Origin: an uncultured Flaviramulus sp.
Lineage (GTDB): Bacteria; Bacteroidota; Bacteroidia; Flavobacteriales; Flavobacteriaceae
NCBI GenBank assembly: GCA_947501105.1
Contig: CANMUP010000006.1
Coordinates: forward strand, 62,001 to 126,000
Length of the DNA stretch: 64,000 nucleotides
Direction of reading: 5' to 3'
The position numbers and the translations under genes are program-made. Shown here one piece after another: positions 33,702-52,085 of this stretch (position 1 is the first letter of the stretch; each line of letters opens with the position of its first letter). The notes under the pieces were generated by a model. The model was not told the origin of the DNA. It did not search any database and worked only from the letters and a program-made list of their open reading frames with translations.

Positions 33702-34466
33702 TTGAATAAAGCAGAGCTTAAAGAATTTTTAGATACTAAAGTAGTCCAATACAATAACCCAAGGTTTATTGAAAGTGACCCTATTAAAATACCACATCAA
33801 TTCAATGCAAAAGAAGACATTGAAATTGCTGGATTTTTAACGGCAACCATAGCTTGGGGGAATCGTAAAAGCATTATTAATAATGCAACCCGATTAATGA
33901 ATTTACTTGATAATGCTCCTTACGATTTTGTTTTAAACCATACTGAAACCGACTTAGAAAAACTACAACCTTTTGTACACCGCACATTTAATGGTAATGA
34001 TTGTATTCAGTTTATAAAGTGCCTAAGGCACATTTATTTGAATCACTCTGGTTTAGAATCTTTGTTCAATAAACACGCAGAAGCTAATTCACTCCAAAAA
34101 TCTATTTCAAATTTTAAGCTCACTTTTTTTGAAATTAAGCATCTAAAACGTACTCAAAAGCATGTGAGCGATCCGCTTAAAAACTCAGCAGCAAAACGCA
34201 TTAATATGTTTTTACGTTGGATGATTAGGAATGATAATGCCGGTGTTGATTTTGGTATTTGGGAGAGCCTCTCTCCTACTCAATTATCTTGTCCTTTAGA
34301 CGTACATTCTGGAAATGTAGCCAGAAAATTGGGGTTATTAAAAAGAAAACAAAATGATGCCAAAGCATTACTAGAATTGGATACTGCACTTCGTAAGCTG
34401 GATGCAAAAGATCCTGTTAAATATGATTTTGCTTTATTTGGACTGGGTGTGTTTGAAGGTTTTTAA
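33702..34466 (+). CDS. TIGR02757-family protein
   Basis: TTG start; 'IPHQFNAKEDIEIAGFLTATIAWGNRKSII', 'RMNMFLRWMIR'-type motif 'KRINMFLRWMIRNDNAGVDFGIW'. Confidence 0.82.
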   Translation: MNKAELKEFLDTKVVQYNNPRFIESDPIKIPHQFNAKEDIEIAGFLTATIAWGNRKSIINNATRLMNLLDNAPYDFVLNHTETDLEKLQPFVHRTFNGNDCIQFIKCLRHIYLNHSGLESLFNKHAEANSLQKSISNFKLTFFEIKHLKRTQKHVSDPLKNSAAKRINMFLRWMIRNDNAGVDFGIWESLSPTQLSCPLDVHSGNVARKLGLLKRKQNDAKALLELDTALRKLDAKDPVKYDFALFGLGVFEGF

Positions 34467-34469
34467 TTT

Positions 34470-34546
34470 GCGTTAGCGATTGAAACGGCATCCTTTTGCT
34501 TTTTTGCAAAAGATATAGTGTAAAGCGCGACCCTTTTGGGTAACGC
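34470..34546. repeat. Intergenic three-helix structured element, copy A
   Basis: GCGTTA...TAACGC closing stem; CTTTTGC/GCAAAAG hairpin; ACCC/GGGT hairpin; junction motifs AGCGATTGAAACGG and AAAGCGCG shared with copy B. Confidence 0.6.
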
Positions 34547-34549
34547 CAT

Positions 34550-34588
34550 AAAAAAAACGATTGACAAACTAATAGTTCATCAATCGTT
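34550..34588 (-). terminator. Intrinsic terminator for the M61 peptidase gene
   Basis: Minus strand AACGATTGA...TCAATCGTT followed by T tract. Confidence 0.75.
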
Positions 34589-34615: not shown

Positions 34616-36508
34616 TTAGCCTTTTAACCATGCTTCTCGTAATGATTTTTGTGCATCAGTAGCATTTTCTTTTGGTAAAATGCCTTTTCCTGTTGTATAA
34701 GTTTTAGTTGTTTTTGTTTTAATGATAACTTCTTCTTCTCCTCTATTTAACACAACCTCTATATCTTTTCCTGGTTTCCAAGAAAATACCTCTTGCAAAA
34801 TGGTATTGGCATTTTGCAATGTTAACGCTGTTCCGTTAATAGATTTTATAACGTCGTTTGGTTGTGCACCATTGTCTGCCCAAAAACTATTTTTTAACAC
34901 CATGTCTGTGAAAAATATGGTTCCTTTTTGTCCATCCCCACTAACTATTGGCGCTCCATTCATTAATATGTAATTGGTTTCTACTTTACCTTCGCCGATT
35001 TTTAATCCTACTTTTTCGAAAAATGTGTTATAGTTTATCGGTATATCGCCTATTACGTGATCGTTAAAGAAGGTTCTTAATGATGGATAAGTCATAGCCA
35101 CAATTTCGTCTATAATTTTGTCATCATCAAACGGTTTGTTTTTTCCATATTTATTAGATAACTCTTTCATTAAAGATAAAATACCACGATTGCCATTACT
35201 TTCTTCACGCATTAAAATATCTATACACATACCAATTAAAGCGCCTTTTTGATAAACGTTTATATATTGATCTTTATATGGTGCTTTTAAAACATTTTCA
35301 CTCATGATAGTAAAACTCATGGCGTCGTTCATTTGAGAGGCTGCTTGAATTTTACCCATCATTTTATTATAAAAGGAGGTTTCATCTACTAAACCTTCAC
35401 TAATTTGAAATAGAGAGGCAAAATATTCTGTTACACCCTCATACATCCACAAATGCTTAGAGAATGTCGGGTTGTTATAATCGAAATAGTGTACATCTTC
35501 AGAGTGCACACTTAATGGGGTTACAATATGAAAAAACTCATGAGACACTACATCAATCATACCTTCATCAAGAGCTTCTTTGGACATTGACTCTGGCATA
35601 ACTACTACGGTTGATGTGTGATGCTCTAAAGCTCCAAAACCTTTTGGAGAAGTTTCTTTTCCATCAGATAAGTACAAATAAATGTCGTAACGTGGTGTGG
35701 TATTAACATCTCCTAAATAAGCTTTTTGAGCTTTCATCATATTATAAATCGTTTCTTTTAACGATTTAGCAGAATGCACTTTGTTTGGTGAATATACGCT
35801 CAAAACTATTTTAATATCACCTACTAAAAACTCTTCAACATCCATATTTCCATACATCATTGGATTATCTGTAATGTCAAAATATCTAGGAGCAAAATAA
35901 CTTGTTGTTGTGTTTTTACCATCCTCAGTTTGTTTAGAACCCATATTTTGTAATGCAGATGTGCGTGCTAAATCAGTTTTGGCTGTAACATCCAATTTAT
36001 ATTGATTATTTTTTAGTGAATCAAAATATCCAATAAAACCATGCAAATTCAACACATAATTGCTTTCTTCAATATTAGTCCCTGATGGCGAAAACGGAGT
36101 CTCTTTGCCTATACCTCCTTCTGCCTCAATATCAAAAGTATCATTTACCAAATAGGTGATTTTATCAAGTTTAGTAGCATTAGCAATTGTCCAAGAATTG
36201 TCATCTGCTTTAGTAACTACCATTTCGTTTCCTTTATAATCTAAGGCTTTGAAATCATCAACATAACTTCCAAAATTACTTACCGAATAAGTCCCTTGTA
36301 TAACTTTTGGTAGTCGATATGTTACCGTTTCAACCGTAAAACGCCCTGGATTAATTGTAACCGGAGCTTTATCATCTACAACATTATTTAAGTGTATTGC
36401 TGTTTCAATAGGTAAGCTTGTTGCTAAATCGTTAACATTATTTTTTGTTGAACCACAACTTGCTAGCAAAATACCAGCAAATAATGCAGTAAGTGTTCTA
36501 TTCTTCAT
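34616..36508 (-). CDS. M61-family metallopeptidase with PDZ domain (lipoprotein)
   Basis: Lipobox 'LLASCGS', 'VVSHEFFHIVTPLSVHSED', C-terminal PDZ-like region. Confidence 0.9.
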   Translation of the reverse strand: MKNRTLTALFAGILLASCGSTKNNVNDLATSLPIETAIHLNNVVDDKAPVTINPGRFTVETVTYRLPKVIQGTYSVSNFGSYVDDFKALDYKGNEMVVTKADDNSWTIANATKLDKITYLVNDTFDIEAEGGIGKETPFSPSGTNIEESNYVLNLHGFIGYFDSLKNNQYKLDVTAKTDLARTSALQNMGSKQTEDGKNTTTSYFAPRYFDITDNPMMYGNMDVEEFLVGDIKIVLSVYSPNKVHSAKSLKETIYNMMKAQKAYLGDVNTTPRYDIYLYLSDGKETSPKGFGALEHHTSTVVVMPESMSKEALDEGMIDVVSHEFFHIVTPLSVHSEDVHYFDYNNPTFSKHLWMYEGVTEYFASLFQISEGLVDETSFYNKMMGKIQAASQMNDAMSFTIMSENVLKAPYKDQYINVYQKGALIGMCIDILMREESNGNRGILSLMKELSNKYGKNKPFDDDKIIDEIVAMTYPSLRTFFNDHVIGDIPINYNTFFEKVGLKIGEGKVETNYILMNGAPIVSGDGQKGTIFFTDMVLKNSFWADNGAQPNDVIKSINGTALTLQNANTILQEVFSWKPGKDIEVVLNRGEEEVIIKTKTTKTYTTGKGILPKENATDAQKSLREAWLKG

Positions 36509-51866: not shown

Positions 51867-51947
51867 AACACAAATGTAATTAATCCTAGTTCAATAATTT
51901 GCAAACTTATGGCTGCTTTTGGGATAATTACTTTTTTTTGGCAGATA

Positions 51948-52050
51948 AGCGCGGGAGCGATAGTAGTGGTTAGCTTTTGTAAAACTTAAACCTATGGTTT
52001 TACAAAACTAGTAACGGATAGCGCGGTTTTTATTTCTTTAAAAACCCGCC
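51948..52050. repeat. Intergenic three-helix structured element, copy B
   Basis: GCGGG...CCCGC closing stem; TTTTGTAAAAC/GTTTTACAAAA hairpin; GGTTTTTA/TAAAAACC hairpin; junction motifs AGCGATAGTAGTGG and GATAGCGCG. Confidence 0.6.
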
Positions 52051-52054
52051 AAAA

Positions 52055-52085
52055 AACAAAAAAGCCACCGTAAAAACGATGGCTA
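52055..52085 (-). terminator. Intrinsic terminator for fabI
   Basis: Minus strand AGCCATCG-TTTTTA-CGGTGGCT-TTTTTT. Confidence 0.82.

Follow-up and report, generated by a model that had tools for sequence, protein, structure and literature searches.

Two elements, referred to here as copies A and B, in a window of 64,000 nucleotides from an uncultured Flaviramulus sp. are members of the Flavo-1 family (Rfam RF01705). On the Rfam strand, the full Flavo-1 unit is a three-way junction: P1 is its closing stem, P2 forms a long arm, P3 is a variable hairpin, and a short 3' tail, CCAAA, follows. The family is already known; the structural detail is new. Flavo-1 can be read, with a probability of roughly 0.5, as a non-autonomous, REP-like palindromic repeat that is selected to fold as single-stranded DNA.

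Family membership and distribution

Flavo-1 is an orphan motif from a computational screen (Weinberg et al. 2010, PMC2864571), and its type in Rfam is 'Gene; sRNA'. In cmscan, both copies match the whole model (positions 1-76/76) and exceed its gathering cut-off of 42 bits, copy A with 55.9 bits (match 34461-34536) and copy B with 46.8 bits (match 51936-52032). The preliminary description of this DNA, made from the sequence alone, had treated the element as undescribed. It had also proposed a search of Rfam, in which a match to a known family would count against it, and that search returns RF01705 for both copies.

Further copies, which had been expected, are numerous. In the source genome (4.19 Mb), a search with RF01705 gives 66 matches at E<=1, and 45 of these exceed 42 bits. 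Three further species of the source genus contain 12, 20 and 38 matches (E<=1e-5). Wide occurrence in Flavobacteriia, which the preliminary description had mentioned, is likewise found: a pattern scan of one-genome-per-species contigs returned 119 stretches from several genera, including Flavobacterium, Chryseobacterium, Winogradskyella, Polaribacter and Lacinutrix, referred to below as the wide set. From these stretches 117 copies were read.

At E<=1e-6, Flavo-1 is present in 44 of 149 sampled Bacteroidia genomes, with a patchy distribution, and in 0 of 14 control genomes, so that its restriction to Bacteroidota holds. At E<=1 the control genomes give only weak matches under the cut-off. Plasmid and phage collections gave no match, a weak negative with a query of only 81 nt.

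Secondary structure

The structure was evaluated on an alignment of 48 copies that have the three-way junction, drawn from three species of the source genus. The proposed pairs form in 92.7% of cells, compared with 78.6% after shuffling and at most 51% when the partners are slid. Twenty of the 25 base pairs vary on both sides, and 158 cells carry double changes, where shuffled data give 38.8 (0/500 shuffles) and slid controls no more than 24. Both the three-way junction and the covarying stems of the preliminary description are thus borne out, with the junction lying partly outside the Rfam model. That model (PMC2864571) shares the P2 arm, its loops and the occurrence in Bacteroidota. However, the Rfam alignment covers only P2, as one interrupted hairpin with unpaired flanks, and P1, P3 and the CCAAA tail fall outside it. 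Because RF01705 models P2 alone, P1 and P3 are additions to the published model.

In the source genus, P1 can be GCGTTA/TAACGC, GTGTTA/TAACAC or GCATTA/TAATGC; copy B has GCGGG/CCCGC. From its base upward, P2 begins with three pairs and an A.G mismatch. Two pairs then lead to a 3x3 loop, GNA/GNA, and another two to a second 3x3 loop, GGN/RTA, above which come three or four pairs and the apical stem. The two 3x3 loops are G.A-rich and conserved. The sequence of the P3 hairpin is free apart from its closing pairs, ACC/GGT.

The helices first described are present in copy A (34470-34546; stem GCGTTA/TAACGC, hairpins CTTTTGC/GCAAAAG and ACCC/GGGT) and in copy B (stem GCGGG/CCCGC, hairpin GTTTTTA/TAAAAAC). 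The segments AGCGATTGAAACGGC and AGTGTAAAGCGCG, taken at that time as junction words, pair together instead and form the lower P2 helix, interrupted by the A.G mismatch and the two 3x3 loops. The actual junction of copy A is a few bases only (A34475, G34529 and A34530). Adjacent helices do overlap, as had been remarked; the shared base is T34541, which fits both P1 and P3.

Table 1. Parts and neighbours of copies A and B, in window coordinates
Feature	Position	Strand	Basis
Copy A, full element and flanks	34462..34554	+	cmscan RF01705, 55.9 bits; own model R1, 88.0 bits (copy A in R1 training set)
Copy A, P1 left arm GCGTTA	34470..34475	+	sequence; P1 covariation
Copy A, P2 arm	34476..34528	+	sequence and alignments
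Copy A, P2 basal part: GCG/CGC, A.G mismatch, TT/AA, 3x3 loop GAA/GTA, AC/GT			
Copy A, P2 upper part: 3x3 loop GGC/ATA, ATC/GAT, bulged C, TTTTGC/GCAAAA, T6 loop			
Copy A, P3 hairpin ACCC-TTTT-GGGT (last T fits P1 too)	34530..34541	+	covariation, helices 5 and 6
Copy A, P1 right arm TAACGC	34541..34546	+	sequence; covariation
Copy A, 3' tail CATAAA (family consensus CCAAA)	34547..34552	+	information content
Copy B, full element and flanks	51943..52057	+	cmscan RF01705, 46.8 bits; R1, 65.2 bits (copy B in R1 training set)
Copy B, P1 left arm GCGGG	51951..51955	+	sequence
Copy B, P2 arm, TTAG/CTAG sub-type	51957..52024	+	sequence; alignment
Copy B, P3 hairpin GTTTTTA...TAAAAAC	52026..52045	+	sequence; alignment
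Copy B, P1 right arm CCCGC	52045..52049	+	sequence
DUF2400 gene	33702..34466	+	PF09674, 1.8e-88
M61 peptidase gene, convergent on copy A	34616..36508	-	

The lower part of P2 also covaries strongly across genera, with 95.7% Watson-Crick pairs in the 117 copies of the wide set. For instance, one of its pairs is TA in 39 copies, GC in 38, CG in 28 and AT in 6. A P1 of the GCGTTA kind is found in 59 of the 117, a proportion that, like those given next, is not free of bias, since the scan pattern fixed the middle of P2; its matching variants are GCATTA/TAATGC, GCAGTA/AACTGC, GCGTGA/CACGC and GCGAGA/CTCGC. The remaining 58 copies have AGC, rarely AAC, ahead of P2, and 49 of them have the complement GCT or GTT, followed by a conserved [TC]C. 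In these copies, P3 is absent (AAAT) or swapped for about 30 nt.

Ends, neighbours and orientation

Flavo-1 has sharp ends. By information content, good conservation outside the stem is limited to one base to the left of P1 and the CCAAA tail to its right. P1 of copy A starts 3 bases past the stop codon of the DUF2400 gene, and copy B (about 51951-52050) sits between two minus-strand genes.

Rfam classes Flavo-1 as an sRNA gene, and elements lie near genes, often just past stop codons. These facts are in line with a reading to which we give a minority share of belief, in which Flavo-1 acts as RNA. It would be a structured element, located in 3' or 5' UTRs or in small RNAs, whose two G.A-rich loops are read by a protein, and binding of the protein would alter mRNA stability, processing or termination. 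The strong covariation and the conserved non-canonical loops also suit it. The surroundings of the element speak against it. The motif TAnnTTTG occurs upstream in 20 of 169 cases and in 20 of 169 mirrored downstream controls; there is no promoter-like excess, and an upstream promoter is rejected since the signal equals its control.

When the element is read forward, its neighbours in the source genome (57 elements) are both reverse in 22 cases, both forward in 7, divergent in 12 and convergent in 16. The corresponding counts in the wide set are 18, 11, 15 and 10. Convergent spaces are over-represented around Flavo-1, with 16/57 against 25/278 in the source genome (p=0.0003) and p=0.05 in the wide set. 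The ratio of antisense to sense among tandem neighbours is 22:7 in the source genome, which is significant, and 18:11 elsewhere; the antisense bias is given no weight because outside the source genome it is only a non-significant trend. Where a bias is seen, its direction, antisense to the neighbouring genes, counts against an RNA. No fixed orientation upstream of related genes was found. All four orientation classes are present, which rules against a cis-regulatory RNA such as a riboswitch or leader. In G002, with the origin taken near dnaA, a hand count of 20 matches gives 14 co-directional with replication against 6, a bias that is not significant.

DNA or RNA

Wobble pairs are rare in P2. 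G.T accounts for 13 of 819 pairs (1.6%), compared with 16 of 204 (7.8%) in tRNA stems of the same loci (p=2e-5), and so low a share of G.U counts against an RNA, although it could reflect strong protein selection on one. On the Rfam strand G.T outnumbers A.C (13:4 and 10:2). This excess suits an RNA, and it suggests that the Rfam strand is the folded one, whether DNA or RNA. DNA folding parameters recover the Flavo-1 structure better than RNA parameters; since tRNA controls favour DNA parameters as well, folding energies were dropped as a discriminator. In the transcriptome of F. psychrophilum, Flavo-1 matches are indistinctly sense or antisense and many lie outside transcribed regions (PMC9723704), a further point against action as RNA. 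Taken together, the evidence favours, without proving, a DNA-level repeat over an RNA element.

Inheritance and mobility

Within the source genus, copies are vertically inherited and their positions are static, which counts against the reading as a mobile DNA repeat. Twelve of 13 elements of G000 are at the matching position in G003 (400 kb compared, about 92% identical). G002 offers no clean empty site, its elements being shared or decayed. Copies at matching places in G002 keep the architecture, but the apical half of P2 may differ and P3 may be unrelated. For instance, at G000 C1:931020, CATCC/GATAT in P2 becomes TTAGC/CTAGT in G002, next to an unrelated P3 and an unchanged P1. Another orthologous copy in G002 is decayed. 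When stems of G000 are compared with G003 and G002, single changes keep the pairing in 10 cases and break it in 8, and double changes keep it in 6 and break it in 0.

Copies kept at matching positions, together with the compensatory double changes, agree with an RNA element, and the double changes fit structural selection in RNA as well as they fit the DNA reading. The same comparison bears on a rather improbable explanation, namely an old mobile palindromic repeat with no present function, in which pairing is kept mostly by template switching within hairpins and by gene conversion rather than by selection. The wholesale swaps of P3 and apical P2, the near parity of kept and broken single substitutions and the decayed copies at orthologous places would all follow from it. 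Template switching should, however, erase mismatches, and many genera retain the A.G mismatch as well as the two 3x3 loops.

Another genus shows a recent dispersed amplification. Here G065 contains five dispersed copies of 86-96% identity, which share their right end and of which at least one differs in its left flank. G174, a relative about 96% identical, lacks one of these copies at the corresponding position; this does not amount to a clean empty site, since a further 4 kb or so of other DNA is present there in G065. Considered along with the retained positions in the source genus, the spread in G065 suggests a repeat that is mobile over long times and static within the source genus.

Associated repeats

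Other palindromes are found inside Flavo-1. CGTC-REP-like inserts (AGATTGCCACGTC...CTCGCAATGACG) lie in the apical loop of P2 at L075, L077, L079, L080, L085, L087, L089 and L090. The P3 hairpin is occupied at L054, L079, L087, L098, L103 and L129 by another short palindrome, TGAGCGnAGTCGAA or a variant of it. Palindromic inserts of the P2 loop are absent at the orthologue in two comparisons, L080 with L127 and L079 with L144.

Two copies, at L057 and L063 (source genome, ends of C2 and C1), lie 109 bp from the contig ends. Their left flanks are nearly the same, so both copies are probably part of a longer repeat at which the assembly broke. In G129 (L319:4784-5088), two tandem copies stand 224 bp apart amid further repeats (CCCTGACAGGGGT).

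Comparison with REP elements

REP elements and their RAYT transposases (PMC3733652, PMC2817692) offer close parallels. Like REPs, Flavo-1 elements are short, dispersed and intergenic, with palindromic, imperfect hairpins and a conserved terminal tail. They are also patchy across genomes, and here they are enriched between convergent genes. Unlike REPs, they are larger (about 75-180 nt), form a three-way junction and do not flank a RAYT gene. A terminal GTAG or CGTC tetranucleotide was not found in Flavo-1, whose conserved ends are P1 and CCAAA. CGTC-tagged REPs (PMC3733652) resemble Flavo-1 as dispersed palindromes with no known transposase, but they differ in sequence, are single hairpins and occur here as inserts within it.

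No mobilising enzyme was found for Flavo-1, a point against the DNA reading. In the source genome, the sole full Y1 transposase gene is flanked by a different palindrome. This RAYT-like gene (L092:1428-1983; C3:718214) has its own palindromes, CCCCCGCTAGCGCTCGTCTGTGACGAGTGACG and TAGCACTCGTTACAAACGAGCGCTAGCAAGGG, on both sides, with extra copies at L092:910-1065 and 2555-2700. Y1 (PF01797) is present in 38 of 44 Flavo-1-positive and 77 of 105 negative genomes (p=0.09), and G012 has 23 Flavo-1 copies without any Y1 match. A RAYT or Y1 enzyme is therefore disfavoured as the mobiliser: the flanks of the RAYT-like gene are other repeats, and the presence of Y1 does not clearly track Flavo-1.

Flavo-1 as a possible DNA repeat

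The reading of Flavo-1 as a DNA repeat draws on its dispersed multicopy occurrence, sharp ends, rare wobble and convergent enrichment, on the lack of a promoter signal and of a consistent sense orientation, and on the G065 amplification and the published transcriptome. Family membership, the three-way junction, the spread in many copies, the sharp ends and the static positions in the source genus have been shown, and we infer action at the DNA level, mobilisation by a putative enzyme and any present role. The enzyme would recognise the Flavo-1 strand when it is folded as single-stranded DNA, perhaps by the P2 loops and the 3' tail, and would spread the repeat. Once spread, an element would persist for long times in intergenic regions, with a preference for those between convergent genes. 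There it could be a binding site for a protein, a boundary or a structure at 3' ends.

A bolder form of the DNA reading is less probable. In it, Flavo-1 would not be an RNA family; its members would be mobile repeats that fold into a three-way junction as single-stranded DNA and stand apart from REPs. A putative protein of their own would read the paired G.A-rich loops and CCAAA, and their hairpin loops would be landing sites for other palindromic repeats.

Implications

For a family that has been an orphan since 2010, the complete structure, with P1, P3, the tail and two sub-types, improves the search model and fixes the exact ends. It also allows a direct test of whether the Rfam 'sRNA' label is correct or Flavo-1 is a structured DNA repeat. 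In the latter case, a protein, perhaps an enzyme, that recognises a DNA hairpin with a three-way junction awaits discovery in a major group of environmental bacteria.
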